Source: a virus
Length of the DNA: 36,929 nucleotides
Direction: 5' to 3' (one strand)
Virus record (IMG/VR): IMGVR_UViG_3300042522_001307
Location: 1 to 36,929 of that record
Made by a program: the position numbers and the translations under genes. Below the pieces are notes generated by a model. It had not been told where the DNA came from and ran no database searches. It worked only from the letters and a program-made list of their open reading frames with translations. Positions 1,079-26,038 of the stretch are shown piece by piece. Each line of letters starts with the position of its first letter. Position 1 is the stretch's first letter.

Positions 1079-1378
1079 TTAGATTAGGAAAAGGTCGTCT
1101 TTGTCTATGGCAAAGACGCCTTTTTTCGTTTTAACTATTGCACTTTCACCGTTGACTTCTTTGATAATACCACCGTTTTTGAGAAAATATTTGGCGATAT
1201 CTAACACCGAATTTTCTCCCATCTTGAGGCAGTCAATTCGCTCTACCAAAGTTTTTAATTTCAACTTAGTGTTTACAAAAGCACCTTCTGACAAGGAATC
1301 TTGTTCTTCTTTGTCATCTATCCACTTCTTAAATTCCGCCATAAAGTTAGGCGAAAAGAATGATTTGTTTTTCTTCAT
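1079..1378 (-). CDS. Hypothetical protein, last gene of the minus-strand operon
   Basis: A 99-residue protein that I cannot assign. It starts with a basic Lys-rich stretch (MKKNKSFF), has an acidic stretch near residues 20-30 (DDKEEQDSLSEG), a helical middle part, and a C-terminal segment that looks like a small beta structure (GGIIKEV, SAIVKTKKGVFAI, DDLFLI), roughly like a KOW/SH3-type barrel. Its ATG overlaps the stop of the upstream gene in an ATGA arrangement (4 nt), which indicates translational coupling. The final codons coincide with the convergent terminator hairpin. There is no membrane segment and no signal peptide. Confidence 0.6.
   Translation of the reverse strand: MKKNKSFFSPNFMAEFKKWIDDKEEQDSLSEGAFVNTKLKLKTLVERIDCLKMGENSVLDIAKYFLKNGGIIKEVNGESAIVKTKKGVFAIDKDDLFLI
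1089..1126 (+). terminator. Rho-independent terminator between convergent operons
   Basis: CGTCTTTG (1096-1103) and CAAAGACG (1111-1118) form a perfect 8-bp stem with a 7-nt loop. The stem extends through AAAAGG/CCTTTT with one bulged T at 1095, and six T residues follow at 1121-1126. This is a good terminator for the plus-strand gene pair. Only 6 nt separate the two convergent stop codons, so the hairpin sits inside the last codons of the minus-strand gene. Read on the minus strand, the stem is followed by TTTTCC, so it could also end the long structural operon, more weakly. Confidence 0.8.
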
Positions 1379-2274
1379 AATAACTTTTCAAAAAATTCAT
1401 TTTCTGATATGTATTTAGAAAATTTGAAACTATTTTTCAAACCAGTATGCCAAATATTTGAATATTTATTTCCAAATTTATACCAAAATAGGTTGCCATC
1501 AACAATTTCATCAGCTGTTCTTTGCACTTCATACTGATGAATGCCATTTTCTATTTCTATAGTTCCGGGTCTATGCTCCTTGTATGCAACACTGCAAAAA
1601 CCAAGAAATATGTCGCCACCACCACACTGGTGCGCCAAATTAATGGCAGCACATATTGGATTCCTATAGTCATCAATGTGCGTAGAACTGTCTTTTGAAA
1701 TTAAACTTTCATAGTAATCATCTGCCACACTGTCATATAAATAAACTATGTTTTTATAGTTTCTTATAAAATTATGATATGACTTTCTGTTGCCTATCAG
1801 TTTGGGAAACCTTGAAATAGGAAGTGCTGTCAAACTAGCCTTGCTTGGATTGTTAAATACAAAATATTCTGGAAAAACAAATGATTGCCAAAATCTGGCT
1901 GCTTGATTCACTACAATTACACAAACATCGCTAGCAACTCTTTCCAACATCTTGTGATTTTCAAATCCAAGTCCATCTGATACAATAAGCCATTTTCTAA
2001 ATTTAGAAAAAAGACTAGTATCTAATATTCCCAATCTTAAGTTCGTATTTTTTATTTCATTGTCTATTAAATCTCTGACATCTACATCATGATAAAAATT
2101 ATTGACATCTTGAGGCTTAACACTTGCACTGACATAATTTCTAATCCAATAATTGCCTATTTTAAGATATTCATTTGTATTTTTATGTTTTTTAAATATT
2201 ACTTTGACTTCTTCATCGTTGTAAGCTTTCACTATCTGTTCGATTACTGAAACCTTTTCAATCGATCTATTCAT
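1375..2274 (-). CDS. MptE/DUF115-like Rossmann-fold protein (putative)
   Basis: About 299 residues from the ATG at 2274. A start at 2301 would add nine residues but overlap the upstream gene by 35 nt instead of 8, and GAGGGA lies upstream of 2274. The middle resembles the MptE-like (DUF115) fold seen in some sialyltransferase-like and flagellin-modification proteins: a strand plus glycine turn (WLIVSDGLGFE), a second strand (CVIVVNQAARFW), EYFVFNN at the place where the family has PD-x-x-x-x-xD, and NPICAAINLAHQCGGGDIFL followed by GFCSVAY, matching the family's helix and strand with a small-residue turn before the xLxY end. The usual GxGPSL and GxDL motifs are only partly kept, so activity is uncertain. 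It lies directly downstream of the giant appendage genes, which fits a sugar-transfer or modification role, but that is inference from fold and position. Confidence 0.5.
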   Translation of the reverse strand: MNRSIEKVSVIEQIVKAYNDEEVKVIFKKHKNTNEYLKIGNYWIRNYVSASVKPQDVNNFYHDVDVRDLIDNEIKNTNLRLGILDTSLFSKFRKWLIVSDGLGFENHKMLERVASDVCVIVVNQAARFWQSFVFPEYFVFNNPSKASLTALPISRFPKLIGNRKSYHNFIRNYKNIVYLYDSVADDYYESLISKDSSTHIDDYRNPICAAINLAHQCGGGDIFLGFCSVAYKEHRPGTIEIENGIHQYEVQRTADEIVDGNLFWYKFGNKYSNIWHTGLKNSFKFSKYISENEFFEKLL

Positions 2275-5200
2275 TTTTTGACTTTCCCTCAAGTAAATCA
2301 TCTAAGTCCACACGAATAATCGAGTCTGTTGGAACTATTTTTAATTTGTTATTTTCTTGTATAAGGTCATCTGCCATAGTTATAGGATCTTTTGCAACAC
2401 TCAAACTTTGTGTAGTTGGAGTTTTTTCAGATATACTTGTCAAAGTCTGTGAATTAGGTTTTTGGCTTTCAGCATTTATTGATTGAGCGACTGGAGCGTT
2501 TGCGCTTGACATTGTTTTTACAGATGTAATACCAGCTGGTACATATTGACTGCACTCTTGACAACAAATGACTTCTGGGTGCCCTTCAATAATGCCAGTA
2601 TGAGAGCATAGGCCAAACTTGTCACACTTTCTAATGGCACAGCTTCCACAACCTTGTTTAATCATTTTGAGCGGCTCTTTGCCAGCAAATTGACATAGTT
2701 TAACTTTGTCTTTTTTAATTGCAGATAATTTTGATATTAGGGTTTCTTGTGTCGTTAAAACATCACTAGTGCTCGGTGTTATGCTTGGCGGCGGAGTCGG
2801 AACAGGTGTATGTTCAACATATGGAGTTGGAGATGCTGACCATAAAAATTTACTTTCTTGTAGCAAATTTTGAGCATTAGGATTTGAATTGACTGCATCG
2901 TCTATATAAAAACTGTTCCAATCATCTAGGCCGTCTGGAACAAATGAAGTTGTTATGCCGGGCAAACAAGGATTGGAGTAAGTATCTCCGGCGTTTGCTG
3001 GAAAACATGCGACTGTGCCGGGGGGATTACACCCACATCCAGCAGCACAAGGTTTTGTCTGTGACCAAGTACCATCACCGTTGCAAGTCCATTGGCATTG
3101 TTTAGGCCAAGGATCGGTTGTTGAACACCTGTCAGCGGGAGGATTGTTTGCACATGGTACCGTTAAAGAATTTCCTTGAAAATTTGCTGGCAAATAACAG
3201 CCGCCGCATTCTGGCGAAGTGCATCTGTTGCTATTTGGGTAAGGCAAAACATAATAGCTTTTACCATTCCATGCAATATCACAACCTTGACAAACAGTAC
3301 AATCCCTTTCTATATACCAACCGTCTACCGTTGGATCACCAGTTGGAGCTGCCGGACAAGAGCAACCATTAGTGGGAGTGCATGTGTTGGTTCCAAAACC
3401 AACTGGTTGGTAGCTGCCATTTTGTACATTTCCTGTAACTATACATCCTGTACTAAAATATATTTGTGTAGGGGGTAATTTTGCAAATGAAGCGGCTAAA
3501 TCGCTGACCGTTGGACAACTACAGGTATCGGTGCCTGTGGCAACACACTGACCGCTTGTAAGTTCCCAATTACCAGTATTTGGATTTTTGTTATAGTAAC
3601 AAGAACCTAAACAGCCTTTGCCAACCCATTTGAATACACATTTACCACAACCCTCTGAAGGAACACATGAGCCGGGCAAAACTTGCCCTTGTGTATTATA
3701 ACTGCAAGGTGCTGTTGGTGGTTTACATGTACATGAATTTGGTGGACACCCTAGTCCACAAAAATTTGCATTTTGAGAACTTAATCTCCAAATATAGCCG
3801 GGCTGAAAATTGTCAACTACTGCAGTGCATACCCAAGAACATCCCAAGCCAGCTGAACAACTACAAGGAGGAGAAGTCGCCTTGGGAACACAAGGCACTT
3901 TCTTATATTGTAAAGGCCAGTAACCGTAACCAGAATAGCTTGCCGTGCTTGAACATTGACATGAACTAAGACAGTTGTTTCCAACATAGTTCCAAGTGCC
4001 TTCTAGAGCTTTTTGAGATGAATTATAGTAATAACAAGGGGTTGTGATTTGCTTTCCGTTAGATGGATTGCTAGGTAATATTCCACCAGATTTAGCATCT
4101 TCTACTGTAACACAGTTGCATGTAGAAGAGCCGCAGTTTGCGGCCAATGTCCATTGTGCCAAATCAGAATAATATGTATAAACGCAAGTTCCACTACCGC
4201 AGGTAGGAGCATTGAATTGAAAAGTGCAATCACCGCAACCAGATGTAGGACTTGGTGTGGGCGTTGGGTTAATACATTGATTGACTAAGAATGACTCGCC
4301 CGGTTGTTGGCCAGCAGGAGGTGGTGTAGGCGTAGGAGGACACTGACAGTTAGCATCTGGGTTGCAGAAGTCATAATTATACCATGCACCTCCATAACAA
4401 CTGAGATTGAATGTTTCACCATCATTTGGAGAATCAGGTAACAGACCCGCATCTTTAGCAGCCTGTGCTGACAAACAATTCATATTATCACAACCACAGA
4501 AACTCGCAGGGTCTAAGCGCCATCCAAAAGTACCTGTATATTCATAAATGCATGTTTGGTCAGTAGGGTCAGGATCGCATGGATTATTTAAATCTGTAAT
4601 ATATTCATCTATACAAGTTCCACATTCGGGTTCACAGCTTTTTGATATTATTTGAGACGTACTTGTTATAGCTTGTAGTGTAGGTGCAGGAGGGCACTCA
4701 CAGCCATAATTGCAATTGCCCAGCGAAGTTTCTCGATAGCACTTGGTATGCCTTGTTATGTTATTTTGAGAGCTTCTTGGCAATACACCTTTGGCTACTA
4801 ATATGGACGGATCTGGACAGATACATCCGCTGTCACTTTCACAATATGAATCATCAGGAGCATATGACCACACCCCTGTTCCGGGGGTATAAAAATATGT
4901 GCAAAAACCTCCGCTACATTGTGTTAAATTATTGTTTGTCCAAACAAATTTTTGACAATTGGTATTAATAGTTGCATTATTTAAGCCATCTGCTGGAAGT
5001 TTCCCATAAGAAACCATCCATCGTGCTTCCGGACAACCACAATTTTCACCTGCTGTGGTGCATGATTGACATTCTGCACACCTGTCCCAGCTACTAGTAT
5101 TAAAATTCCAATAGTAAGTGCAAACACCACTACCACAGTCTTCTATAGATGGCATGAAATTACATGAACCACAATTGGGAAGCGGAGTAGGGGCAGGAGT

Positions 5201-7375
5201 AGGTTTGGGGGTTTTGCTAGGCTTAGGAGTAACTGGTATAGGCCTGCCCGGATCAACAGGAATTACAATACCTCCTCCACCACCAGAACCACCCCCGCCG
5301 CCACCGCCTTCACCGGGCCATGGGTCGCCACCCGGGCCGAATGGAACACTCACCTGTGGTGTTGGGTTAGGTGTTGGCAAAGGTGTAGCAGTATTTTTTG
5401 GTGTAGCAGTAGGTGCGTTTGTGAGTCTTGGAGTTGGCGCTGGAGTTTTTGATGGTCTAGGTGTGGCACCACAAGGTGACGGAGTTGGAGTTGGGAAATC
5501 ACAAGGCCCTTCGCCATTGCTGTTTACTCTGACACACGCTGAACTTACATAAGCTAAATTTGTAAATGATGAATCGCTAGGTCCAACGCCAATGTATACA
5601 TTCCATGAACCTTTTACCAAAGGTTGATCGGTAAATGCAGATAAGTTATTGCCGTAACCGTTAAATCCAGAAGGTGCAGGCGCTGGTGAAGATAAAGTAA
5701 CTAAGCCGCCTGCACTTGCTGATGTTGTGTTATTGTTGGCATTAGGTGCATAGTTTCCAGTTTTCAAAGGAACACTAAAATCGTATATGTTATTTGCACC
5801 ACCATCTTCAAAAGTTAAAGTCACAGGTTGATTCATTATGAATTGGGGAGTAGATATGTTTCCTGCCGTATTACCGCCCATAATCAAACATGTGTTGCCG
5901 TTAGGATCTACCACCAATACTTTTACTAAATCATATCTGGAATAAGGAGTAGATGCTCCAAAAGTCTGTACAAAGAAATCATGAAGGACAACAGAAACCT
6001 TAGCAATTTTTTGATTTGCACCAGCACAAACGTTACATCCTTGATCTGTTATGCCTCCAGCTGTATTTGGCGCTCCTGATTGTATAGAACCGGTGCAATT
6101 TGTGCAGTAATCGCTAGTTAAAGAGATGGCTATATCTGCGTTGCTAATGCTTATGACACTAGGAATGTTGCTGTTTACCCGAATCACTGTGGGTGAGATA
6201 TTTATGATACTGGGAGCAATCAAGCTAATGCTCATATTTGATGGCGCAATAATGCTTATAATGCTTGGCAAATCGGAATTTATATCAATTATACTGGGCA
6301 AATCATCTATAACGGTAATAGTAGTTGGTATGTTGTCTATTATGTTAATTACAGATGGAATAACTACAGAACTTGTTATGACTATGTTGCTAGGAATTAC
6401 CGGAACATCTTCGAATGTAATTACACTGGGTATTCCATAGTCGCTGACAAAAGATATAGTAGAAGGAACTATAATTGGTCCAAATGGTCCTATGTCCAAA
6501 CATGGGAAAACTATGGGTGGGAAAATTATATTTTCTTGTACTGGATTCACTACGTCTAAGTCAAAACTTGGGAAATCTGGCAACACTGGCACTATGACTG
6601 GGAATGAAAAGCCAACCAAATTATTTTGTTGTAAATCATTTAAGTCCACTCTTTGTGCACTTGTTTGCAAAGTCTCACAAGAGGTAGCATTAACAGTTGC
6701 TACTGGGTCAATTCTTTTGTTTGGAGGATAAAAGTGTGTTCCAGTAGTGGCTTGAGTTTCAGTGGAACCATCGCCGAAATCTATGACAAATCCACTATAC
6801 TGGTCAGTTCCAATAATATTTAAGACATAAGATATTTCTGTTCCCTGTATGGGGCTTTCGCTGGTTACAGTATAATAGAACTCCATCTGAGGACATCCCG
6901 CATCATCGGTGTATGCAGGCAAATTATTGATGTAGGATAATTTCCAATAAATAGATTGCTTATCGGTTGTGTCATTTGTGCCTATAAAAGTTTCTGTATT
7001 AACCAAGGCTCTTGCTAAGTTATTATGATGTTCTGCAATGACGTAGCCTCTTACTGAGGTACCTGCATTATAATTTACCGCTGGCGTTCCATTGGTTCTT
7101 CTTATGCAATTATTGAAGCTTACAACGGCTCCTGCAGTAGGACCACTCAGTCTAGTGACTGAAGAATAATAAATTAATTCGCCTTCGATAGTAACATAGC
7201 CGCTATCGGCCCATATTTGAAATTTACCAGCTTCTGTTGGCACTACATTTATTGTTGTTTCCCAAGAATTCAAAGTCGCAGACAAAACTGTTTCAGAGGT
7301 ATCGAATACCTTGAATAATGTTGTGTCAGTATCCAAATTACTAGGATAGGACGATATAGGTAATATTGTGCCCAA
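2267..7375 (-). CDS. Giant cysteine-rich tail appendage protein, copy B
   Basis: A 1702-residue modular protein. Order: N-terminal docking module (about 1-135, ending in AEHHNNLARALVNTETFIG); PKD-like domain (about 170-240, VIDFGDGSTE); decapeptide repeats of type IPSxIxIxxD (about 300-418); jelly-roll resembling the proprotein-convertase P domain (about 457-618); Pro/Thr-rich linker with a poly-Gly tract (about 620-745); cysteine-rich modules (about 734-1475, near 80 Cys); second Pro/Thr linker; C-terminal eight-Cys cluster (about 1555-1612) and a conserved tail (VPTDSII). Translation starts at TTG, since no ATG lies nearby and the reading frame matches the paralogue from that codon. The domains suggest a surface-exposed, host-binding virion component. 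No signal peptide or enzyme motif is seen. It is a tandem paralogue of the upstream gene, 9 nt away. The role is inferred from architecture and position. Confidence 0.8.
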   Translation of the reverse strand: MGTILPISSYPSNLDTDTTLFKVFDTSETVLSATLNSWETTINVVPTEAGKFQIWADSGYVTIEGELIYYSSVTRLSGPTAGAVVSFNNCIRRTNGTPAVNYNAGTSVRGYVIAEHHNNLARALVNTETFIGTNDTTDKQSIYWKLSYINNLPAYTDDAGCPQMEFYYTVTSESPIQGTEISYVLNIIGTDQYSGFVIDFGDGSTETQATTGTHFYPPNKRIDPVATVNATSCETLQTSAQRVDLNDLQQNNLVGFSFPVIVPVLPDFPSFDLDVVNPVQENIIFPPIVFPCLDIGPFGPIIVPSTISFVSDYGIPSVITFEDVPVIPSNIVITSSVVIPSVINIIDNIPTTITVIDDLPSIIDINSDLPSIISIIAPSNMSISLIAPSIINISPTVIRVNSNIPSVISISNADIAISLTSDYCTNCTGSIQSGAPNTAGGITDQGCNVCAGANQKIAKVSVVLHDFFVQTFGASTPYSRYDLVKVLVVDPNGNTCLIMGGNTAGNISTPQFIMNQPVTLTFEDGGANNIYDFSVPLKTGNYAPNANNNTTSASAGGLVTLSSPAPAPSGFNGYGNNLSAFTDQPLVKGSWNVYIGVGPSDSSFTNLAYVSSACVRVNSNGEGPCDFPTPTPSPCGATPRPSKTPAPTPRLTNAPTATPKNTATPLPTPNPTPQVSVPFGPGGDPWPGEGGGGGGGSGGGGGIVIPVDPGRPIPVTPKPSKTPKPTPAPTPLPNCGSCNFMPSIEDCGSGVCTYYWNFNTSSWDRCAECQSCTTAGENCGCPEARWMVSYGKLPADGLNNATINTNCQKFVWTNNNLTQCSGGFCTYFYTPGTGVWSYAPDDSYCESDSGCICPDPSILVAKGVLPRSSQNNITRHTKCYRETSLGNCNYGCECPPAPTLQAITSTSQIISKSCEPECGTCIDEYITDLNNPCDPDPTDQTCIYEYTGTFGWRLDPASFCGCDNMNCLSAQAAKDAGLLPDSPNDGETFNLSCYGGAWYNYDFCNPDANCQCPPTPTPPPAGQQPGESFLVNQCINPTPTPSPTSGCGDCTFQFNAPTCGSGTCVYTYYSDLAQWTLAANCGSSTCNCVTVEDAKSGGILPSNPSNGKQITTPCYYYNSSQKALEGTWNYVGNNCLSSCQCSSTASYSGYGYWPLQYKKVPCVPKATSPPCSCSAGLGCSWVCTAVVDNFQPGYIWRLSSQNANFCGLGCPPNSCTCKPPTAPCSYNTQGQVLPGSCVPSEGCGKCVFKWVGKGCLGSCYYNKNPNTGNWELTSGQCVATGTDTCSCPTVSDLAASFAKLPPTQIYFSTGCIVTGNVQNGSYQPVGFGTNTCTPTNGCSCPAAPTGDPTVDGWYIERDCTVCQGCDIAWNGKSYYVLPYPNSNRCTSPECGGCYLPANFQGNSLTVPCANNPPADRCSTTDPWPKQCQWTCNGDGTWSQTKPCAAGCGCNPPGTVACFPANAGDTYSNPCLPGITTSFVPDGLDDWNSFYIDDAVNSNPNAQNLLQESKFLWSASPTPYVEHTPVPTPPPSITPSTSDVLTTQETLISKLSAIKKDKVKLCQFAGKEPLKMIKQGCGSCAIRKCDKFGLCSHTGIIEGHPEVICCQECSQYVPAGITSVKTMSSANAPVAQSINAESQKPNSQTLTSISEKTPTTQSLSVAKDPITMADDLIQENNKLKIVPTDSIIRVDLDDLLEGKSKNE
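3920..5470. repeat. Long direct repeat, downstream copy (partner 9080-10633)
   Basis: The two giant paralogous genes are nearly collinear here with an offset of 5160 bases. Example: the 60 bases from 4381 are identical to the 60 bases from 9541, and those from 5162 match those from 10322. Identity is highest over the first cysteine modules and the Pro/Thr linker. It drops sharply below about 3900 (downstream cysteine modules) and in parts of the N-terminal half. Short indels in the Gly/Pro linker shift the offset to 5163 near 5460. Confidence 0.85.
5271..5309. repeat. Poly-glycine coding tract (CCN repeats on plus strand)
   Basis: A near-uninterrupted run of CCT/CCA/CCC/CCG triplets on the plus strand encodes GGGGGG-S-GGGGG in the minus-strand appendage gene. 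It lies between two Pro/Thr-rich linkers, so it is probably a flexible hinge. The paralogue has the same tract at 10431-10463 with a different length, consistent with slippage. Confidence 0.8.
6130..6465. repeat. Array coding for IPSxIxIxxD decapeptide repeats (copy B)
   Basis: The minus strand encodes successive units IPSVITFEDV, IPSVINIIDN, IPTTITVIDD, LPSIIDINSD and LPSIISIIAP, with less regular units on either side. The central units have a strict 30-base period. The pattern [IL]-P-[ST]-x-I-x-I-x-x-[DN] suggests a stacked beta structure or stalk. I do not recognise a named family. Confidence 0.75.
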
Positions 7376-7384
7376 AGTTACTTT

Positions 7385-10300
7385 CTACCTTTCATTGGCT
7401 TCCTTTTTGCCATCTATTAGTTCATCTACGCTTATATGTATTACAGAATCAGCCGGTACAACTTTTATCTTATTATTGGCGCTAATTTCATTTTCTGCCA
7501 TAGTCATAGCATCTTGTATTGGTTGAACTTCACGCATCACTGGCGAATCCGCAGATATTTTGCCCACTTGAGAATTTTGTGTGTTTAAGTCAGAAACAAC
7601 ACTAGAAGATAATGGATTGTTTTTATTGTTAGGCAAATTAATGTTGCCCGTTTTATTTGGACTATAACTAGTGCAATTCTGACAGCAAATTACCTCAGGA
7701 TGTCCTTCGATTATGCTAGTATGAGAACATAGTCCAAACTTTTCACATTTACGTATAGCACAAGTTCCACAACCTTGTTTTACCATGCGTGCAGGTTCTT
7801 TATCTGCATACTGACACAATTTAACACGTTCCTTGGATATAGGAGCAAGTGTTGTTTTCAGATTTTCACTTGTTGTCAAAATATCTGAATAAATAGGCGT
7901 AATACTAGGAGGAGGTGTTGGTGCCGGTGTGTGTTCGACATAAGGAGTAGCCGTTGGAGTAATATTTGCTATTAAACTTACAGGCTCTGCATTATGGACA
8001 TATATAGGTTCGACAAATGTCAGATTTATTGGGTTAGCCACAGGGCCGCAAGTACCCAAGGCTTTCAATCCATTCGTTGTTCCGTCATAAAAAGGCGGAA
8101 CACATCCGCACGACAAAGCCTGAGGACTAAACGTTTCTTCTGATTCATAGGAGGAAAAATCCATGTCATTGTCAGTGTTGTAAAGCATTAAAGAAGAACC
8201 ATACTTTATGCATGCTTGACTGGAACCACTATCGTATATCCACGTTTTGGCGGCGGCATCCCAAGTAAAGTAGCAATTTCCTATACAACCATTGTTTGGA
8301 AGGGAGCAGCTGCTATTAACAACTAAGCCAACGTTCGCTGAAGTGCAAGTATAACCAGCTGAAAGAGGGTAGCAAGCACATTCACCTCCTGTTAAACACA
8401 AACCTGTAGGAACCCATGTGTAAGATCCTCCAGATTGTGTGCATGTAAATGCACATCCGCCACTGCATGCTTCATAACCACATGGAAGTGAAATCGTGTC
8501 AGTTGAGTAGGTTGTAGGTGGAGATTTGCATCCCGAAGGGAGGCATGGAAACCCGCAATTCCCAACAACGACAACATATTGTGTGCCATTCCATTTATAA
8601 AGACATGCGGCGCATCCGTTTTGGCAACTAACATATCTTTTATAGCCATAATCAGCTAGACTTCCGTCATAAACTTGCGGGCAACTACAATTCGGACCAC
8701 AATAATTATCAAATAAAACCCAAGAGCCAGCAGTTGGATCGGGATTAACACACCCAGTATAAAAATCTAATGTACCCGGTGCCAGCTGACCAATTGTCGT
8801 CTGAAGTTGCGCTACAGATGGACATGTGCAGCCGCCCGTACATTGGCCTGTTACAAACTGCCACTGATTGGTTAGCGTGTCAAACTGATAGTAACAATTC
8901 TTAGAAACAGAGCCTGTAGAGCAACCTGTGCCAGCCCAATAGTAGATGCAGCTAGAAGCAGAACATGCTGTAGTGACGGCTGGTGTTGGCAAAGGACTAG
9001 GTTGTGGACCACTAGCACTAGGAGTGGGTGTGGGAGATGGCTTGGGTTCGCAATTTTCAATCTTTATTTGTCCGGGGAAATATCCAAAACCAGAATAGCT
9101 TGCAGTATTCAAGCACGTGCAATCGCTGGTACAAGTGTTCCCTGTATAGTCCCAAGTACCCTCAAGCTTTTGTTGATTTGAATTGTAAAAATAACAAGAA
9201 GTATTTACTTGTTCGCCATCACCGGGATTCTCAGGCAATAATCCCATAAATATAGCATCTTCAACATTCATACAGTTACATGTAGAAGACCCACAGTTTG
9301 GACCTACTGTCCATTGTTCCAAATCAGAATAATATGTATAAACGCAAGTTCCACTGCCACATACTGGAGCATCAAATTCAAATATACAGTCTCCACAACC
9401 TACTGTAGGACTTGGTGTGGGTGTTGGGTTAATACACTGATTAACTAAAAATGAATTGCCCGGTTGCTGACCAGCAGGAGGTGGTGTAGGCGTCGGAGGA
9501 CACTTGCAGTTAGCTTCAGGGTTACAGAAGTCGTAATTATACCATGCACCTCCATAACAACTGAGATTGAATGTTTCACCATCATTTGGAGAATCAGGTA
9601 ACAGACTCGCATCTTTAGCAGCTTGTACTGACAAGCAATTCATATTATCACAACCACAGAAACTTGCAGGGTCTAAACGCCATCCAAAAGTACCTGTATA
9701 TTCATAAATACATGTCTGATCAGTAGGGTCAGGATCGCATGGATTATTTAAATCTGTAATGTATTCATCAATGCAAGTTCCACATTCGGGTTCACAGCTT
9801 TTTGATATTATTTGCGATGTACTTGTTATTGTTTGAACAGTAGGCGGATCTGGACATTCACATCCTTGGTTACATTTACTAATTGCTGTTTCTTGGTAGC
9901 ACTTAGTATGTCTTGTTATATTATTTTGAGAACTTTTTGGCAATACACCTTTGGCTACTAATATCGATGGGTCTGGGCAACTACATCCGCTACCACTTTC
10001 ACAATACGAATCATCAGGAGCATACTCCCATTGTCCTAACCCGGGAGTATAAAAATATGTGCAAAACCCTCCGCTACATTGTGTTAAATTATTGTTTGTC
10101 CAAACAAATTTTTGACAATTAGTATTGACAGTTGCATTATTTGAGCCATCTGCAGGTAGTTTTCCATAAGAAACCATCCATCGTGCTTCTGGACAACCAC
10201 AATTTTCACCTGCTGTGGTGCATGATTGACATTCAGCACATCTACTCCAACTTTTACTGGTAAAGTTCCAATAGTAAGTGCAAACTCCGCTACCACAATC

Positions 10301-12529
10301 TTCTATAGATGGCGTAAAATCACATGAACCACAATTGGGAAGCGGAGTAGGGGCAGGAGTAGGTTTGGGGGTTTTGCTAGGCTTTGGAGTAACTGGTATG
10401 GGTCTGCCCGGATCAACAGGAATTATAGTACCTCCGCCTCCGCCTCCACCGCCCCCTCCTCCAGTTCCCGGCCATGGTTGACCACCCGGGCCAAAGCCGC
10501 TGGGTGCTGGTGTAGGAATGGGCGTTTTATTGGGCGTTGGTAAAGGCGTTCCGGTATTTTTTGGTGTGGCAGTCGGCGCATTTGTGCGCCTTGGGGTCGG
10601 TGCTGGAGTTTTTGAAGGTTTAGGTGTGGCACCACAAGGTGACGGAGTTGGAGTTGGGAAATCACATGGGGCTTCTCCATTGCTATTCACTCTGGCACAA
10701 GCGGAACCGACGTAACATAAATTTGTATATGTGGCGTCGTTAGGCCCAACACCTATGTAAACGTTCCAAGCACCTTTGACCAAAGGCTGGTCAGTAAAGA
10801 CAGCAAGGTTGCTGCCATATCCATTAAAACCCGACGGCGCAGGAGCGGGAGCGGATAAATTGACTAGTGTTCCAGCATTTCTTGAGCCTGTGTTACCATT
10901 AGCATTTGGATAATATGTGCCAGTTTTTAAAGGAACGCTGAAATCATATATGTCATTCGTAGAGGAATCATCAAAAGTCAAAGTAACCGGTTCTGTCATG
11001 ATAAACTGGGGAGTGCTTGTATTCCCCGCAATATTACCGCCCATAAGCAAACATGTGTTGCCGCTGGGATCTACCACCAATACTTTTACTAAATCATATC
11101 TTGTAGAAGGGTCTTGAGCATTAAAAGTTTGCACTAAGAAATCATGTAATACAACTGTAACTTTAGTGATTTTTTGATTAGCTCCAGCACAGACATTACA
11201 TCCCACATCAGTAGGTCCACCTGCTGTGTTGGGCGCACTAGCCTGAATGCTTCCAGTACAATTTGTGCAGTAGTCGCTTGTCAAAGAAACTGATATGTCG
11301 ATATCATTTACAGAAATTACACTGGGGATGTTACTTTGCACCTGAATCACTGTTGGTGCTAAATTTATAACGCTTGGTGCAATTAAACTTATTGATATGT
11401 TAGAAGGAGAAATTATACTTATTACACTTGGTAAATTGGAATTTACATCAATTATACTGGGTAAATCATCTATAACGGTAATAGTAGTTGGTATATTGTC
11501 TATTATGCTAATTACAGATGGAATTTCAAAGTCACTTGTAATTTTTATGATGCTAGGAAATACAGGAATATCTTGGAATGTAATTACGCTAGGAATCACA
11601 TTTGGATTTATAAGTGATATGGTAGAAGGAATTGATATTGGCCCAAATGGCCCTATGTCTAAGCAAGGAAATACTATGGGTGGGAATTGAATTGCATCTG
11701 GAACATCATTTACAGTTGCCAAGCTAAAATTGGGGAAATCTGGAATGGCTGGAACCACGATTGGGAAAGTGTCGAGTCCCACAATATTCACCTGTTGCAA
11801 ATCATCCAAAGATACTTTTTGTGCAGAAGTTTGAAGCGCATCGCAGGCTGGCGAATTAACGGTGACAACTGGTTCAACTTTTTTATTAGGCGGGTAGAAA
11901 TGTGTTCCGCTCAGAGATTCATTTTCCGTAGTGCCGTCGCCAAAATCAATAGTAAAACCAGTGTATGGCACTGTGCTGTTTATAGCTAAATTGTATGATA
12001 TTTCAGTGCCTTGAATTGGGTCTTCAGTTACGATGGTATAATAGAATTCAAGTTGTGGACATCCAGCATCGTCAGTATAAGGCAATAAACTGTTTATGTA
12101 GTTGAGCTTCCAAAGAATGCTATTTTTATCTGTTGTATTAGTAATTCCTATAAATTCTTCGATGTTGACCAATGCTCTTGCTAAATTGTTATGATGTTCA
12201 GCAATTACAAATCCTCTTACGGACGTGCCGACTGGATTATTTTTTGATGGGACACCATTGACACGTCTTATGCATGATTTGAACTGTGTAACAGCAGCTG
12301 ACACTCTTGTGACTGCTGCGTAGTATATTAACTCTCCTTCAATAGTCACATAGCCTGTATCAGCCCATAATTCTGGCTTACCTGCTGGAACAGGTATTAT
12401 GTTTATAGTTGTTTCCCATGCCAACAAAGTTTGGGACAAAACGGTTTCCGAAGTATTGTATACCTGAAACAGAGTCGTATTGGTGTCAAGCGCACTCGGA
12501 TAAGACGATATTGGTAGAACCGTTCCCAA
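7385..12529 (-). CDS. Giant cysteine-rich tail appendage protein, copy A
   Basis: A 1714-residue paralogue of the downstream gene with the same order: docking module (1-132, EHHNNLARALVNIEEFIG), PKD-like domain (about 165-235, TIDFGDGTTE), IPSxIxI repeats (about 300-413), P-domain-like jelly-roll (about 455-613, with RYDLVKVLVVDPSGNTCLLM and KGAWNVYIGV), Pro/Thr and poly-Gly linker, cysteine modules (about 733-1495), Pro/Thr linker and eight-Cys C-terminal cluster. The first cysteine modules are almost identical to copy B. The later ones differ: here a second Pro/Thr/Ser linker (PSPTPTPSASG) interrupts the array. The start codon is TTG at 12529 with GGGG four bases upstream. Probably an extracellular, host-contacting virion protein. 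The cysteines could be disulfide-bonded once outside the cell or could bind metal. Confidence 0.8.
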   Translation of the reverse strand: MGTVLPISSYPSALDTNTTLFQVYNTSETVLSQTLLAWETTINIIPVPAGKPELWADTGYVTIEGELIYYAAVTRVSAAVTQFKSCIRRVNGVPSKNNPVGTSVRGFVIAEHHNNLARALVNIEEFIGITNTTDKNSILWKLNYINSLLPYTDDAGCPQLEFYYTIVTEDPIQGTEISYNLAINSTVPYTGFTIDFGDGTTENESLSGTHFYPPNKKVEPVVTVNSPACDALQTSAQKVSLDDLQQVNIVGLDTFPIVVPAIPDFPNFSLATVNDVPDAIQFPPIVFPCLDIGPFGPISIPSTISLINPNVIPSVITFQDIPVFPSIIKITSDFEIPSVISIIDNIPTTITVIDDLPSIIDVNSNLPSVISIISPSNISISLIAPSVINLAPTVIQVQSNIPSVISVNDIDISVSLTSDYCTNCTGSIQASAPNTAGGPTDVGCNVCAGANQKITKVTVVLHDFLVQTFNAQDPSTRYDLVKVLVVDPSGNTCLLMGGNIAGNTSTPQFIMTEPVTLTFDDSSTNDIYDFSVPLKTGTYYPNANGNTGSRNAGTLVNLSAPAPAPSGFNGYGSNLAVFTDQPLVKGAWNVYIGVGPNDATYTNLCYVGSACARVNSNGEAPCDFPTPTPSPCGATPKPSKTPAPTPRRTNAPTATPKNTGTPLPTPNKTPIPTPAPSGFGPGGQPWPGTGGGGGGGGGGGTIIPVDPGRPIPVTPKPSKTPKPTPAPTPLPNCGSCDFTPSIEDCGSGVCTYYWNFTSKSWSRCAECQSCTTAGENCGCPEARWMVSYGKLPADGSNNATVNTNCQKFVWTNNNLTQCSGGFCTYFYTPGLGQWEYAPDDSYCESGSGCSCPDPSILVAKGVLPKSSQNNITRHTKCYQETAISKCNQGCECPDPPTVQTITSTSQIISKSCEPECGTCIDEYITDLNNPCDPDPTDQTCIYEYTGTFGWRLDPASFCGCDNMNCLSVQAAKDASLLPDSPNDGETFNLSCYGGAWYNYDFCNPEANCKCPPTPTPPPAGQQPGNSFLVNQCINPTPTPSPTVGCGDCIFEFDAPVCGSGTCVYTYYSDLEQWTVGPNCGSSTCNCMNVEDAIFMGLLPENPGDGEQVNTSCYFYNSNQQKLEGTWDYTGNTCTSDCTCLNTASYSGFGYFPGQIKIENCEPKPSPTPTPSASGPQPSPLPTPAVTTACSASSCIYYWAGTGCSTGSVSKNCYYQFDTLTNQWQFVTGQCTGGCTCPSVAQLQTTIGQLAPGTLDFYTGCVNPDPTAGSWVLFDNYCGPNCSCPQVYDGSLADYGYKRYVSCQNGCAACLYKWNGTQYVVVVGNCGFPCLPSGCKSPPTTYSTDTISLPCGYEACSGGCAFTCTQSGGSYTWVPTGLCLTGGECACYPLSAGYTCTSANVGLVVNSSCSLPNNGCIGNCYFTWDAAAKTWIYDSGSSQACIKYGSSLMLYNTDNDMDFSSYESEETFSPQALSCGCVPPFYDGTTNGLKALGTCGPVANPINLTFVEPIYVHNAEPVSLIANITPTATPYVEHTPAPTPPPSITPIYSDILTTSENLKTTLAPISKERVKLCQYADKEPARMVKQGCGTCAIRKCEKFGLCSHTSIIEGHPEVICCQNCTSYSPNKTGNINLPNNKNNPLSSSVVSDLNTQNSQVGKISADSPVMREVQPIQDAMTMAENEISANNKIKVVPADSVIHISVDELIDGKKEANER
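9080..10633. repeat. Long direct repeat, upstream copy (partner 3920-5470)
   Basis: Partner of the repeat in the downstream paralogue, with an offset of 5160 bases. Most substitutions I compared are silent third-position changes, although several blocks of 50-60 bases are identical. This points to duplication followed by purifying selection, or to gene conversion between the copies. Confidence 0.85.
10431..10463. repeat. Poly-glycine coding tract (CCN repeats on plus strand)
   Basis: CCT/CCG/CCA/CCC triplets encode eleven glycines in the upstream giant appendage gene. Unlike the copy at 5271-5309, there is no serine interruption. It separates two Pro/Thr-rich linkers. Confidence 0.8.
11290..11630. 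repeat. Array coding for IPSxIxIxxD decapeptide repeats (copy A)
   Basis: Same array as at 6130-6465, encoding units such as IPSVISIIDN, IPTTITVIDD, LPSIIDVNSN and LPSVISIISP. The central 30-base units line up with those of copy B, while the outer units have diverged more. Confidence 0.75.
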
Positions 12530-12541
12530 ATTACCCCACTA

Positions 12542-14827
12542 TTAGTATGACCCAAATAACCATTGCGTGCCACTGGGCCTGCTTGACAATTTGGAAAACG
12601 ACAAATCGACATCATTGAACTTGATAAAAGCATTATTACTGTAATCGAAGCTCAAAAAGGCATTGCTTGCAAAATCGGTTGTTGCCACCAAAGCATTGTT
12701 TTCATTGTCATAGTCAGGAACAGTTTTATCTTGAAGATTGGAAAAGGTTATGGAATTATAACCGGGGCCGCCGGTCTTCCAAATGTTGACGGAAGGGTCA
12801 AACGCCAGAACAGATCCACTATTATTAAAAAAGAATAACCCTGTTGTTAGGTTTACTAATTGGCCTTGTGTCTTTACAGGTCCCGGCATATCTGGTAATT
12901 TTTTAAAACTATCAAGAAGATAAGACGTGCTCTCAACTGTTGCATAAAATGACTTTATCATAAAGTCATTTCCTACTGTGGTATTTTTTAAAATATAACC
13001 GCTTCTGCCTCTGAATGCAGTTCTGTATGCACTATAAGCGCCATATATGTTTTGTCCAAATGGGTCGTATTGGGCCGCATTATATTCCAACAAATCCGCC
13101 TGTGCAGTAAAGCTCGCATTCGTGTATGCATATGTCTGCCTGCTGCCATCAATTAAGCTTTGAATATCTACATTTAGGTTAGTTGGGCTGGTGCTGGGTG
13201 GCTGTGTTGCAGCGTTTCCTAGAATGTAATAGATTACGCTAGTGCCATTGAAAGGAATCCAGTTCCAAGGTCTGTTGAATTGGAAGCCGACTGGAGTATC
13301 GTAAGTCTCTTGGAAGCCATTGTAATTCACGCAATTCACAGTTTCCAAGGTGGAAGACTGGGATGCTGTTCTGCCACTTGCCCATGACAAAATGCTAAAT
13401 CCTTGAAGGCCTGATGGAGTGGTGCTTCTCGCATTTAAATTATTGTTGGTATTGAATTCATTTTTGGCTCTTGCCTGTTGAAGAGGATCTGCTATGTAAT
13501 CTAAGAAAGATGAATCTTTAGTAATTACTGTGCTGACAACTTGTTTAGTTTTGAAAGTTTCATTTAAGAATCCGAGTTCAGAAGCATAAACTGATGTTGC
13601 GTATGCACCAGTTCCAAATGTAAACAACCAAGCATTTTGTCTTTCAATCGCATTTATATATTTGTAATTCTGTGTGATTCTATAAGCTTCAGAATCTGTA
13701 TCACACCTTAAAACAACTTGATAATCTCCACCTATTGTATAAAGTGCTTTTGTAACTGGCGTAGTGGTGGCATGGGAAAGAGTATCGGATAAATCCCAAG
13801 TATAAGAGACTATGGGATCTATTTCAGTATAAATTCCGGGGGGAGATTCTATTAGCCATGCTCCATTGTCTGCTCTTAAAGGGTCAGAACCCACAATGAC
13901 CAAATCTGTTGTATATACATCAACATAAGCACCGGTTGGTGCTTTGATATAAGGTGGAATTCTGGTAGGGAAGTTTTTCAAACCCGGCTTTGAAGGGTCA
14001 AACTCTGCATTTCCGGGCCATCCAACAACAATTTCTGCTTCTGCTGGAGCCACATAAAGCGCATCTATCATTCCAACAAATGTAACGGTATCTTGACCAA
14101 ATTTATTTTGCACAGTCATGGAAACAGTGTATATGCCCGGTGAAAGATATGTGTGAGTTATAACAGGGTTGGTTGTCGTCTGGGTTGCTGGCGGAATGAC
14201 ATTTGAATCGCCAAAATCCCAAGTATAAGTTATTGTATTGTTAGGCAGTTCTTCACCCAAATATAAACAGTAACTAGTAAAAGTCACTTCCATGCCGAAA
14301 CCCGGAGTGATTTTCCCCAAAAGAGGCGTTGCAACAAACCAAGCTCTAGGAGTAAAAACTGTTTTAAGTAAAAAATTTGTTCTGCCGTTGATAGTTCCTT
14401 CAAAAGGCAAGATACCTACATCACTTGTAACGCCCAAATATTCTTCTATATTTAAAGTAGCATTTTTGATTGAGTTGTGATGCTGAGCAGTGACGTTCAT
14501 GGAAACATTCGTTGCACCAGCTTTTTTCTCAGTCTTATCAGGAGTTTCGTCCAAGACAGTCAAGTCTGAGAAAGTAAAATTTATATTATCTTTTGCGCCA
14601 TAATAAAATGATGTCGCACGATATTCAGTGGGACTACAGTTTTCTGTAAGTGTTATGATGCCAGTAACTGGAAATTGCGCCATGATAACAGCATCTTGGG
14701 CAACATAAATTATTGTATCGCCCGGAGAATAATCCTTTGCCAGAGGCAAAGTCAAGGCATCGGCAACACTGTAAAGATTAGTGGATGTGTCTAATGTTAC
14801 TGGAAATGTAATTTCAGGAATTGCCAT
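12542..14827 (-). CDS. Tail appendage protein with docking module and PKD-like domains
   Basis: A 761-residue protein. Residues 1-130 are a diverged copy of the docking module shared with the neighbouring genes (TLDTSTNLY near the start, TAQHHNSIKNATLNIEEYLG at the end). Two PKD-like domains follow: about 165-258 (YTWDFGDSN, HTYLSPGIYTVSM) and about 285-380 (YTWDLSD, with the DG lost). From about 390 on I recognise no family. The C-terminal 100 residues contain short strands (LFFFNN, VLAFDPSVNIWKT, NAFLSFDY, NAFIKF) that look kelch- or propeller-like but are too few for a propeller. The start ATG shares one base with the upstream stop (TAATG) and has a strong GGAGGT at 14834-14839. It ends in two stops (TAA TAG) just before the TTG start of the next gene. 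Likely a virion surface protein. Confidence 0.75.
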   Translation of the reverse strand: MAIPEITFPVTLDTSTNLYSVADALTLPLAKDYSPGDTIIYVAQDAVIMAQFPVTGIITLTENCSPTEYRATSFYYGAKDNINFTFSDLTVLDETPDKTEKKAGATNVSMNVTAQHHNSIKNATLNIEEYLGVTSDVGILPFEGTINGRTNFLLKTVFTPRAWFVATPLLGKITPGFGMEVTFTSYCLYLGEELPNNTITYTWDFGDSNVIPPATQTTTNPVITHTYLSPGIYTVSMTVQNKFGQDTVTFVGMIDALYVAPAEAEIVVGWPGNAEFDPSKPGLKNFPTRIPPYIKAPTGAYVDVYTTDLVIVGSDPLRADNGAWLIESPPGIYTEIDPIVSYTWDLSDTLSHATTTPVTKALYTIGGDYQVVLRCDTDSEAYRITQNYKYINAIERQNAWLFTFGTGAYATSVYASELGFLNETFKTKQVVSTVITKDSSFLDYIADPLQQARAKNEFNTNNNLNARSTTPSGLQGFSILSWASGRTASQSSTLETVNCVNYNGFQETYDTPVGFQFNRPWNWIPFNGTSVIYYILGNAATQPPSTSPTNLNVDIQSLIDGSRQTYAYTNASFTAQADLLEYNAAQYDPFGQNIYGAYSAYRTAFRGRSGYILKNTTVGNDFMIKSFYATVESTSYLLDSFKKLPDMPGPVKTQGQLVNLTTGLFFFNNSGSVLAFDPSVNIWKTGGPGYNSITFSNLQDKTVPDYDNENNALVATTDFASNAFLSFDYSNNAFIKFNDVDLSFSKLSSRPSGTQWLFGSY

Positions 14828-15849
14828 TAAGTTACCTCCACTGTTTCAGAAAAAATGGCTCTTGTGACTATATTTCCTTCAATTGTAATTAACACGGAAG
14901 GTCTGTAGGTACCGGGATTTTGATATTGATGTGTCACAACCATTACATTGGGATCTTCACTGAAGATACTTTGCCCATCACCAAATTGCCACAACCTGTT
15001 GACAATTGGACCTTGTGTTTGGTCATAAAATGTAAATGTTGTAGGTGTTCCTGCAGAACTTGTTGCAGTAGCAATACTTGTACCAGTAACAGGAATCACA
15101 TATCCAAAGGGTGTAGTGAAATTATCACTGACGCTTATGTAACTTAATTTTGTGGCTACACCTTGTCCACCTTGATCAGATATAATTCGCAACTGGACAG
15201 TATAATTTCCAGCTTTCAAATAGGTATGAGATGGATTTTTTTCATAACTAGCAGAGCCATCTCCAAAATCCCAGAAAAATCTGTTTATCAACCTGTTTGT
15301 GAAACAATGGAAATTTACTGTTAAGGGAGGAATGCCGGATAAAGGAAAAGCTCTGTAAATTGGCACTGGTGCCAAATATCTATTTTCAAGGTTTTTCAAT
15401 AACCCGGTAACTGTTGTAGTATCAGTATTACTTTCTACACCAACAAACCCTTCTATGTTTAGGACGGTATCCTTCAGGGAATTGTGGTGGTCAGCAAAGA
15501 CACCGCCCTCAACTGCCGTATTAACGGGCCAAGAATTAATCTTGGTGCCCATGAAACCACGATTCAGGTTGTAGAATGTGTTTCTAGTCTTATTTGCGTA
15601 ATATACAAATTCGACAGAGGTTCCTTTTTTGCTGGGCAAACTGAGACGAAAAATTCCTTGTGCGGGAAAATTATCGGTTGTATCGACTATGATTACATCG
15701 GCAGTTATCGATGTAGCACCTTTAGTAACTGTTACGCTGTTGTTATAAACCTCGTATAAGTTATTGAAGCTATCAAGGGCTGCCGGGTATAAAGATAAGT
15801 CTCCGTCTTGATAACCGGCGATATTACTGCTAAGTTTTACTAGGGCCAT
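14827..15849 (-). CDS. Short tail appendage protein: docking module plus two PKD domains
   Basis: A 340-residue protein and the smallest member of the four-gene appendage family. Residues about 15-145 are the docking module (YPAALDSFNNLYEVYNN at the start, ADHHNSLKDTVLNIEGFVG at the end). Two PKD domains follow: about 168-250 (FFWDFGDGSASYEKNPSHTY, AGNYTVQL) and about 255-340 (RLWQFGDGQS, HQYQNPGTYRPSV). PKD domains are Ig-like folds common in surface and carbohydrate-binding proteins. With no further domain it could be a connector or decoration protein on which the larger relatives are built. There is no clear ribosome-binding site. The ATG is 3 nt after the stop of the coiled-coil gene, so coupling is likely. 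Confidence 0.75.
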   Translation of the reverse strand: MALVKLSSNIAGYQDGDLSLYPAALDSFNNLYEVYNNSVTVTKGATSITADVIIVDTTDNFPAQGIFRLSLPSKKGTSVEFVYYANKTRNTFYNLNRGFMGTKINSWPVNTAVEGGVFADHHNSLKDTVLNIEGFVGVESNTDTTTVTGLLKNLENRYLAPVPIYRAFPLSGIPPLTVNFHCFTNRLINRFFWDFGDGSASYEKNPSHTYLKAGNYTVQLRIISDQGGQGVATKLSYISVSDNFTTPFGYVIPVTGTSIATATSSAGTPTTFTFYDQTQGPIVNRLWQFGDGQSIFSEDPNVMVVTHQYQNPGTYRPSVLITIEGNIVTRAIFSETVEVT

Positions 15850-15852
15850 ACA

Positions 15853-16494
15853 TTAGTTATTTTCTTTTAGTAGTTTTTTATTGGCGTTTAAGAGTGCTTC
15901 TTCAATGTTTTTTTTCAAAGCACTGTCCGAAGGAAGAGCCAGACAGCTTTTTAATAGCTCAGGATTAGGCGGTAAGCCTAAAGTTTGCGTTAAAACTAAC
16001 TCTTTTTCAAACTTTTGAGTCCAATATTGAAGCTGGGCAGACTCGTCATCAAAATCCTTATAAGCAACTAATTCTGATAATTTTTCAAATTCTTCCACCA
16101 AAACTTGCATTTCCTTAAGAATATTTTCTCTTTGAGAGTCTAAAGATTGTTTAGTTTTGTAAAGTCTATCAATATTTCTTTTTTGTTTGCTTACTTGTAT
16201 CAATGTTTTTTTCTGTCGTATTTCTTTAAGAGCAGGATTTTTTGCTACTATATTTTTAAGTTGAATTTCTTCCAAATCTAGTTTAGCTATTTCGATATTA
16301 TCTAGCAAATCTTGATAATCTGTCTCTAAAGCTTGCAAAGTTTCTTGTCTGGCCTGAAGTTCTCTGACACACTGCCAAAATTTTCCTATATCACTGCTCT
16401 CTTTGCCTAAAATAAAGTTCCTTATTTGGAAATTAGAATGGCAGCTTGGAATCTTGTGCTTATCTAAAATTTTTGTACATTTTTCTAGTGTCAT
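15853..16494 (-). CDS. Coiled-coil protein, unknown function
   Basis: A 213-residue protein with no family I recognise. Residues about 45-165 are highly charged and leucine-rich with heptad-like spacing (ETLQALETDYQDLLDNIEIA, KRNIDRLYKTKQSLDSQREN), predicting long coiled coils. The N-terminal 40 residues contain three cysteines, and the C-terminal 50 are helical with an LGLPPNPELLK turn. There is no membrane segment. The ATG overlaps the stop of the upstream glycosyltransferase-like gene by 4 nt (ATGA), and the short PKD gene follows 3 nt after its stop. By position it may be an assembly chaperone or a structural linker for the appendage proteins. Confidence 0.6.
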   Translation of the reverse strand: MTLEKCTKILDKHKIPSCHSNFQIRNFILGKESSDIGKFWQCVRELQARQETLQALETDYQDLLDNIEIAKLDLEEIQLKNIVAKNPALKEIRQKKTLIQVSKQKRNIDRLYKTKQSLDSQRENILKEMQVLVEEFEKLSELVAYKDFDDESAQLQYWTQKFEKELVLTQTLGLPPNPELLKSCLALPSDSALKKNIEEALLNANKKLLKENN

Positions 16495-17018
16495 GTTAAT
16501 TTAGCCCCAACTATAGCTTTGAAATTACAACCCTTTTGCAGAGCCTTGTCTGCCCACATTAACTTAGTAAGTTCCAAGTGATTGCTAGTTCCAAATGCAC
16601 CCACTTCCTCATGTACTTTCTTACTCAAAAGTAAGCCATTTAAAGTTGCTTCTACAAAATTCCAATTTCTGTTTACTACAGGGAATAAAATATCTTTATA
16701 GCTTTGAATATATTTTGAATTTTTATCATCAATATTTTTGGGCACAGTAATGCCTGCAAATATAAAATAAACCCATTCTGTTTGTGCGACTTCACAAATA
16801 GAGTCGATGGCGGTTGTTAGGCAATCGCCTTTTTTAATTAACTTTGTGTTATCAAAAGGAAGAGTGCAAATTTCTGAAGTTGGCAATACTGCAACAATTT
16901 TTTCGTATGAGTATTGTAAATTTTTTAAAGAATCAATTGTTTTTTTGATTTCATTCAATCCTTTTTCATGCGCCAGAACACCAACGGTCATATCTAATTT
17001 TTTGCTTTGAAATAGCAT
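16491..17018 (-). CDS. Small glycosyltransferase-2-like (GT-A fold) protein without a clear DxD
   Basis: 175 residues from the ATG at 17018, which has GGAG six bases upstream; an ATG at 17030 lacks such a site. The pattern resembles a compact family-2 glycosyltransferase: first strand MTVGVLAHEKG, helix with KTIDSLKNLQ, strand KIVAVLP, helix with GDCLTTAIDSICEVAQ, strand WVYFIFAGITVP, then FPVVNRNWNFVEATLNGLLLSKKVHEEVGAFG, like the family's segment after the DxD where 'hVGxFd' often appears. The metal-binding DxD position is AGI here, so classical GT activity may be lost or altered. The protein is shorter than usual GT2 enzymes (often 220-300). It lies directly upstream of the appendage genes, which suggests a modifying or scaffolding role for them. 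Confidence 0.55.
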   Translation of the reverse strand: MLFQSKKLDMTVGVLAHEKGLNEIKKTIDSLKNLQYSYEKIVAVLPTSEICTLPFDNTKLIKKGDCLTTAIDSICEVAQTEWVYFIFAGITVPKNIDDKNSKYIQSYKDILFPVVNRNWNFVEATLNGLLLSKKVHEEVGAFGTSNHLELTKLMWADKALQKGCNFKAIVGAKLT

Positions 17019-17068
17019 GTTGCGCTCCATTTGAAGATGTTCAATTAGAAGCTATTAGCTGTTTTTTT

Positions 17069-17906: not shown

Positions 17907-18422
17907 TTAGACAAATGATAAGGTCCAAGTAAATGTCACTTGCATGTCTGCCGATTTAACCAAACTAGGATAAGTTACCATGCTATACAAAGAGTTGTCG
18001 CTGAGTTGCAATGCCATTTCATTTATAGAATATCCAACAGCATCACCAAAAAGAAGAGTGGCGACAAAAACGGCGTTAGTGGTAACAGTTCCATCCACAT
18101 AGCTATTAACGCCTTTACTCACCACTGCAGGACCATAAAGTGCAGTTCTTGCGGGACTTACTACTTTTGGTGTGCCACTTCCATCGACACCTTGACTGCC
18201 AAAAACCATGGCGTTAATGTACAAAGATGGGACCAATTCGCCCGTTGATGTTGTGGTGGCCGCAGGGCAAGTGCCCAAGGTATTCGTGAGTGCTTTTGCC
18301 AAAGCTTCTCTACCAGTTATGAGAACAGTATTGTCAAATTCATGAATGTATTTCTTTCCATTTCCATAAATGATATCGACTTTGATGCTTCCCTTGGCTT
18401 TTAATGAGTCTGTGCTTTTCAT
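17907..18422 (-). CDS. Tail/baseplate structural protein
   Basis: A 171-residue protein. The N-terminus is a strand hairpin (SIKVDIIYGNGKKYIHEFDN) followed by a short helix (GREALAKALTN). The middle has SLYINAMVFGSQG and RTALYGP, and the end has YSINEMALQLSDNSLYSMVTYP and TFTWTLSF. This layout (FG-x-x-G, INEM-x-L, LYS-x-V-T-x-P, F-x-W-x-L-x-F) is familiar from small tail or fibre-associated proteins of myoviruses. I cannot give a specific name. The start overlaps the stop of the gpI-like gene (ATGA), so the two are probably coupled and the product is likely part of the baseplate periphery. Confidence 0.65.
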   Translation of the reverse strand: MKSTDSLKAKGSIKVDIIYGNGKKYIHEFDNTVLITGREALAKALTNTLGTCPAATTTSTGELVPSLYINAMVFGSQGVDGSGTPKVVSPARTALYGPAVVSKGVNSYVDGTVTTNAVFVATLLFGDAVGYSINEMALQLSDNSLYSMVTYPSLVKSADMQVTFTWTLSFV

Positions 18423-21766: not shown

Positions 21767-21775
21767 TTTGCACCG

Positions 21776-23333: not shown

Positions 23334-23750
23334 TCATACTCCTGTAGGTATCTGTATCACTAGATTTTCAACAGCATTTATTTTGTTGGGAACAAAAAAT
23401 CTTATTGCTATATAAATTGTATTGCTATTTAGATTTGCAGCTATGGCTATATCTTGGTTTGTAGAGCCATAAGAATCTGTGACTGTTACTTCTTGAACTA
23501 CTATCCTAGGTTCCCAGATCGCTATTGCGCTGTTTATTGCAGCTTTTACTCTGTCGTAAATAAGAGGATCATTGGGTTCAAAAATCAAATTTCTTAAAGA
23601 GGTGCCGTATTCCGGCATCATGACTCTTTCACCCGGATTTGTAAGGATTAGCTGTAGCAAATCCGCTTTTATGACATTTGTGTCATAAATTGTAGGCAAT
23701 AAACCCTGAGGGGTATTAACTATAGGATACGGACAACCAAGCAAATTCAT
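23334..23750 (-). CDS. Baseplate wedge protein, gp25/gpW family
   Basis: A 138-residue protein with a clear GPW/gp25 pattern: ADLLQLILTNPGERVMMPEYGTSLRNLIFEPND (about residues 29-61), where GER-x-M-x-P-x-x-G and LIFEP are the family's core, then a helix (YDRVKAAINSAIAIWEPRI) and two strands, including IYIAIRFFV. T4 gp25 is 132 residues, so this is full length. It connects the wedge to the inner baseplate and is thought to start sheath assembly. ATG with AGGAG upstream. The 73-nt gap before it is the largest non-coding gap in the operon. Confidence 0.92.
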   Translation of the reverse strand: MNLLGCPYPIVNTPQGLLPTIYDTNVIKADLLQLILTNPGERVMMPEYGTSLRNLIFEPNDPLIYDRVKAAINSAIAIWEPRIVVQEVTVTDSYGSTNQDIAIAANLNSNTIYIAIRFFVPNKINAVENLVIQIPTGV

Positions 23751-26037: not shown

Positions 26038-26038
26038 A

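Follow-up and report, generated by a model that had tools for sequence, protein, structure and literature searches.

The closest described systems are the Agrobacterium phages Milano and 7-7-1, contractile-tailed phages with disulfide-linked virions in which the disulfides were observed by cryo-EM (PMC10811340, PMC12796354); the tail proteins of Milano are cross-linked by disulfides (PMC10811340). The phage analysed here, represented by a 36.9-kb virus record (36,929 nucleotides, all of which constitute the window), resembles both in being contractile-tailed with unusually Cys-rich structural proteins, but differs in the distribution of cysteine: in Milano and 7-7-1 the cysteines are spread over the structural proteins (2.1% in Milano) and make intra- and inter-chain links, whereas in the window phage they are concentrated in two fibre proteins, as tandem modules (about 11% Cys in the array). 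High cysteine content is confined to these fibres. Neither Milano nor 7-7-1 was among the matches when the phage collection was searched with these proteins by tblastn, and a literature search on Cys-rich phage fibres yielded no match beyond Milano, 7-7-1 and the capsids of single-stranded RNA phages. The 12-Cys module array of these two proteins is real and conserved, is apparently uncatalogued, and makes up the distal, exchangeable portion of a modular tail fibre.

The bacterial cytoplasm, where phage fibres are made, keeps cysteines reduced, and a Cys-rich fibre end is therefore unusual. The initial annotation had called such a cysteine load unexpected in a phage tail protein; unusual it is, but contractile Milano and 7-7-1 provide a precedent (PMC10811340, PMC12796354).

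Fibre genes in a tail and baseplate operon

The two fibre genes, copies A and B, end the gene series of a minus-strand tail and baseplate operon, in which a Tail_P2_I-like gene is followed by small proteins and then by four anchor-domain proteins, the last of which are copies A and B:

28611-36632, minus strand: probable tape measure, named from sequence features and position without a profile match
23824-26091, minus strand: baseplate OB-domain protein (Phage_base_V domain)
23334-23750, minus strand: gp25-like protein, also named from sequence features and position without a profile match
21776-23332, minus strand: gp6/J-like baseplate wedge protein (phrog_219, E 2e-29)
18419-21766, minus strand: Tail_P2_I-like protein
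14827-15849, minus strand: neighbouring PKD protein with the anchor domain (blastp, alignment)
12542-14827: gene linked to both copy A and the PKD protein at 14827-15849 (blastp, alignment)
7385-12529, minus strand: copy A, paralogous fibre of 1714 aa with 97 Cys
8033-10333, minus strand: cysteine-module array of copy A, residues 733-1499
2267-7375, minus strand: copy B, complete tail-fibre ORF of 1702 aa with 100 Cys
1375-2301, minus strand: partner gene of 308 aa, directly downstream and overlapping the end of copy B

The baseplate and tape-measure genes of this operon, together with an N-terminal domain common to the neighbouring PKD proteins, uphold the original assignment of copy B to a phage structural protein, and its co-encoding with contractile-tail baseplate genes, which lie upstream, is as expected of a modular tail fibre. 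Near the baseplate genes, a 179-aa gene (16491-17030, minus strand) is conserved in many related contigs; its product resembles a small glycosyltransferase-type fold by eye and matches no Pfam family or solved structure. Copy B is organised as follows, from the N-terminus:

6926-7375, minus strand: N-terminal anchor domain, residues 1-150, common to copy A and the PKD protein at 14827-15849 (blastp, alignment)
6116-6505, minus strand: IPS-repeat segment ([IVL]PS-x-[IV] repeats), residues 291-420
5504-6106, minus strand: P-domain-like region, residues 424-624, preceded by a CxxC...CxxC motif
5177-5500, minus strand: Pro/Thr/Gly-rich stalk, residues 626-733
2951-5173, minus strand: cysteine-module array, residues 735-1475, 80 Cys
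4925-5173, minus strand: array unit 1, residues 735-817, 10 Cys, GKLP
4628-4924, minus strand: array unit 2, residues 818-916, 10 Cys, GVLP
4238-4627, minus strand: array unit 3, complete composite module, residues 917-1046, 12 Cys, GLLP
3890-4237, minus strand: array unit 4, complete composite module, residues 1047-1162, 12 Cys, GILP
3650-3889, minus strand: array unit 5, short variant, residues 1163-1242, 10 Cys
3308-3649, minus strand: array unit 6, residues 1243-1356, 11 Cys, AKLP
2951-3307, minus strand: array unit 7, the most divergent, residues 1357-1475, 15 Cys
2543-2704, minus strand: C-terminal Cys/His cap, residues 1558-1611 (VKLCQ...CCQECSQY), kept in copy A and in the related contigs L043 and L044
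2270-2350, minus strand: C-terminal tail peptide (KIVPTDSIIRVDLDDLLEGK), similar to the tail that ends the propeller-like fibre of contig L052

The Pfam family P_proprotein matched two of eight homologues of the P-domain-like region (best E 0.0014), and not copy B itself. Profiles of this region, of the downstream gene (1375-2301) and of the gene at 16491-17030 found no convincing solved relatives. The tail peptide is of the type K-I-x-P...DEL[IL]-x-G, which closes both Cys-array and propeller-like (L052) fibres.

Composition and conservation of the cysteine modules

Positions 2960-5180 (copy B residues 732-1472) encode exactly 80 Cys in 741 residues on the minus strand (10.8%, with 1 His and 19 Trp), as the initial count of about 80 in about 740 had indicated, and the other 961 residues of copy B contain 20. 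Fifteen other ORFs checked in the window, mostly tail and baseplate genes (the capsid genes lie outside the window), contain 68 Cys in 8291 residues (0.82%), and thus the excess in the array is not compositional: at this background, the binomial probability of at least 80 Cys in 741 residues is approximately 4e-61. Cysteine enrichment across structural proteins, of the Milano type, was not found in these 15 ORFs.

All five LP markers noted at the outset are present (LP at residues 793, 865, 979, 1100 and 1300), as are the motifs G-x-C-x-Y-x-[YF] and C-x-C-P. The modules are indeed repeated, but not with the proposed length of 65-75 residues, which is close to that of one half-module: a complete unit is a composite of two half-modules, with 112-130 residues and 12 Cys. 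Its first part consists of C-G-x-C, a strand, C-x(n)-C-x-Y-x-Y, a turn, W, and C...C-x-C; the remainder consists of a short helix followed by LP, T-x-C-Y, a turn, W, C...C-x-C-P, and a final C. The seven units of copy B are about 83, 99, 130, 116, 80, 114 and 119 residues long by profile analysis, and since these lengths are unequal, autocorrelation of the cysteines over the array gives no fixed period. Thus, the presumed periodic spacing does not hold in the strict sense, but homologous modules are recovered by profiles across groups of arrays. A complete-module profile locates units at copy B residues 735, 818, 918, 1047 and 1243, a similar series in copy A, and further series in the related contigs L043, L044, L045, L046 and L047. 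A profile trained on the near phylogenetic group alone detects the principal modules in the far group (22-48 bits), and one trained on the far group detects those in the near group (15-49 bits), compared to a best score of 8.3 bits in shuffled controls (shuffled completely, or with the cysteines held in place). An alignment of 13 modules, mostly 29-45% identical to the first, contains 11 invariant columns, namely nine Cys, G2 and Y27.

Residue comparisons in which each side of a mismatch was counted, with Gly, Pro, Trp and Tyr tallied separately, indicate that cysteine is retained as other residues change: copies A and B keep 44/44 Cys and 217/342 other residues, copy B and L043 keep 44/44 Cys and 82/446 other residues, and copy B and L045 keep 32/43 Cys and 29/384 other residues. 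Conservation evidently acts on the protein and not on the DNA, because 16 of the 44 Cys codons common to copies A and B have switched silently between TGT and TGC. The two copies have about 70% identity close to the N-terminus. Identity rises to 84-96% over the stalk and first three units (where third-position identity is also raised), falls to 66% for unit 4 and 33% across units 5-7, and returns to about 70-71% in the C-terminal cap, so that most of the sequence change lies in the distal units and the parts on either side are conserved. Silent-site identity is raised in the end of the stalk and the first three units (3890-5173 and 9050-10333, minus strand), and not in most flanking parts, which suggests recent gene conversion between fibres A and B.

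Searches with Pfam, PHROG and NCBIfam profiles gave no match over the array except Kelch_6 (E 0.91) and two single-module matches to Pfam, snake-toxin-like (E 0.18) and albumin I (E 0.63), which were dismissed as chance. A known eukaryote-type Cys-rich family, which the initial annotation had named as an explanation that would refute its reading, was thus not matched in any of the three collections, and the only resemblance is a weak one to complement-control domains. A Sushi repeat has about 60 residues and four Cys, with a Trp between the last two; the second half-module of the phage array has a similar pattern (G..V...C...W......C....C.CPP), but the complete phage module has 12 Cys. A profile search of PDB sequences returned a CD55 complement-control construct (whole-sequence E 6e-4, best single stretch with an independent E of 0.41), and neither the two full proteins nor the 13 modules matched Pfam Sushi at E<=1; the resemblance is a lead and not a relationship. 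AlphaFold2, supplied with the 13 module sequences, modelled copy B residues 918-1034 as a beta-rich module (pLDDT 82.8, pTM 0.70) and a three-unit stretch with middling confidence (pLDDT 72.5, pTM 0.35), in which every LP is preceded by a short helix. Foldseek with the module model found no match at E<=0.001 in the PDB and BFVD, and the best VIA Z score for the model was 3.9.

Relatives and exchangeable fibre ends

When IMG/VR was searched directly, copy B by itself gave no match, and relatives were reached with a neighbouring gene as the query. Apart from the window, the array was detected only in five further IMG/VR viral contigs (L043-L047), always at the same fibre gene position. The module profile matched nothing in 12 related records besides the six array carriers, nor in 398 genomes of the phylum of the L059 genome, a set without any positive genome and therefore uninformative; searches for the array in plasmids, and for single modules and the C-terminal cap in phages, gave nothing of note. 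Contig L059 (RXKI01000071.1), binned as a Neisseriaceae metagenome-assembled genome, has the same fibre operon; it is probably phage, and its placement may either point to a host or reflect faulty binning.

Among the relatives, the N-terminal domain is 32-68% identical and the C-terminus consists of a Cys array, propeller-like repeats or IPS repeats, that is, a conserved N-terminal attachment domain is joined to differing C-terminal domains, as in modular tail fibres. The fibres of L048, L050 and L052 end in YFAGG-type repeats, propeller-like by eye, that of L050 also with an RCC1 domain (Pfam E 5e-56), and the fibres of L054, L055, L057 and the 595-kb phage LR756511 (L003) have only IPS repeats at that place. 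The fibres of L048, L050, L052 and LR756511 thus share with copy B the N-terminal domain (32-47% identity) and the gene position, but their YFAGG-type/RCC1 propeller-like or IPS ends have no Cys modules. Because orthologues carry propeller-like or IPS repeats in its place, the array constitutes an exchangeable piece at the distal end of a modular tail fibre. The N-terminal region gives a tree that would fit a single origin of the Cys array, and repeated swapping therefore does not follow. In LR756511.1, the IPS-type repeats of the orthologous fibre (locus 19989-22010) carry paired cysteines (PSFDCISFC, repeated), so that this protein has apparently been enriched in Cys independently. Together these fibres, in which related N-termini bear a Cys array, propeller-like repeats or IPS repeats, form a natural set for the study of fibre-end exchange, and the modules constitute a new profile-detectable family.

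Possible redox state and role of the array

Copies A and B may be modular tail fibres of a contractile phage bearing a host-contacting disulfide array that is oxidised after lysis, a reading to which we give about even chances. The fibre would be docked on the baseplate through its conserved N-terminal domain and extended outward by the IPS repeats, the P-domain-like region and the Pro/Thr stalk, leaving the array as a distal, presumably host-contacting segment of small beta-rich modules, each predicted to run from a hairpin through C-x-C, a short helix, LP and a strand to a second hairpin. The 12 Cys of a complete module would most likely pair as six intramodular disulfides. As phage proteins are synthesised in the cytosol, the chain would be made reduced and would oxidise when virions are released by lysis, which would fix the array as a tough, locked chain of binding modules. 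More tentatively, the modules may be an undescribed Cys-rich repeat family acting as an oxidation-matured adhesin, reduced in the cell and becoming a rigid binding array after lysis, with the redox conditions outside controlling maturation. Phage fibres are usually Cys-poor and held by trimeric beta structure; a fibre end of tandem 12-Cys modules would be another way of building a host-contacting rod and, were it oxidised, a phage adhesin that matures outside the cell. If the disulfide reading is true, the modules could also serve as robust binding scaffolds.

The array cysteines are likely to form disulfides, judging from their numbers. The Cys count is even (12 or 14) in 11 of 13 composite modules, which are non-independent samples (the exceptions have 13 and 15), and extra cysteines come in twos: in L046 a pair flanks a hairpin turn (YEC...GNC), and L044 contains an extra CSSC that is absent from L043. 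The modules could instead be metal-binding domains (Zn or Fe-S, C4-type) that fold in the reducing cytoplasm with the cysteines as ligands, a doubtful alternative: 12 Cys make three C4 sites on paper, the C-G-x-C and C-x4-C spacings resemble zinc knuckles, the C-terminal cap holds Cys and His, and the fibre is presumably made in the cytosol, no signal-peptide-like hydrophobic stretch being visible at the N-terminus, but strict C4 sites do not agree with units of 10, 14 and 15 Cys or with cysteines gained in twos, His is nearly absent (1 in 741 residues), and zinc-binding families were unmatched in profile searches. Disulfides are favoured over zinc because Cys counts are mostly even, gains come in twos and His is scarce. 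DsbA and glutaredoxin were not found in any of the 13 phage records searched, which are fragments, and thioredoxin exceeded the cut-off only in LR756511, a phage without the array; a search for Evr1/Alr matched no control genome and so carries no information on the phage records.

The array probably contacts the host, a role suggested by its position and divergence, and chiefly by the variation of the distal modules between conserved flanks. Were the array a mechanical stalk or spacer for extension and durability, the receptor site would belong to the C-terminal cap or to a different gene; this is unlikely, for although A, B, L043 and L044 all retain the cap past the array, and in L044 a further Cys-poor region separates the last modules from the cap, the part that differs most between A and B is the distal units and not the cap, and a Pro/Thr stalk already precedes the array. 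It is less likely still that the cysteines mainly cross-link adjacent fibres or other tail proteins as a Milano-like redox lock, reduced for infection. The tail parts of Milano are disulfide-linked, and some of the bonds must be reduced for contraction (PMC10811340); the two adjacent Cys-rich paralogues could likewise pair together. However, the mostly even counts within modules suggest internal pairing, and a Milano-like network of partners is not apparent, because the other ORFs checked in the window have only 0.82% Cys, versus 2.1% in the structural proteins of Milano. Chance or low complexity without a domain, to which only the lack of a fixed autocorrelation period could point, is ruled out by the cross-group profile detection, the conservation of cysteine between arrays with its invariant columns, and the confident single-module model.

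The gene directly downstream of copy B (1375-2301) evidently serves the fibre generally and not the array, because its homologues directly follow every type of fibre end seen: Cys-array, propeller-like and IPS-only. MptE-like domains occur in Maf flagellin glycosyltransferases, and 3 of 11 members of the 1375-2301 family have a distant MptE-like (Maf/DUF115) match (best E 7e-5), so that the product may be a glycosyltransferase or a fibre partner, with modification of the Thr/Pro-rich stalk as one possibility. An MptE-like downstream gene was found for L052 and LR756511.
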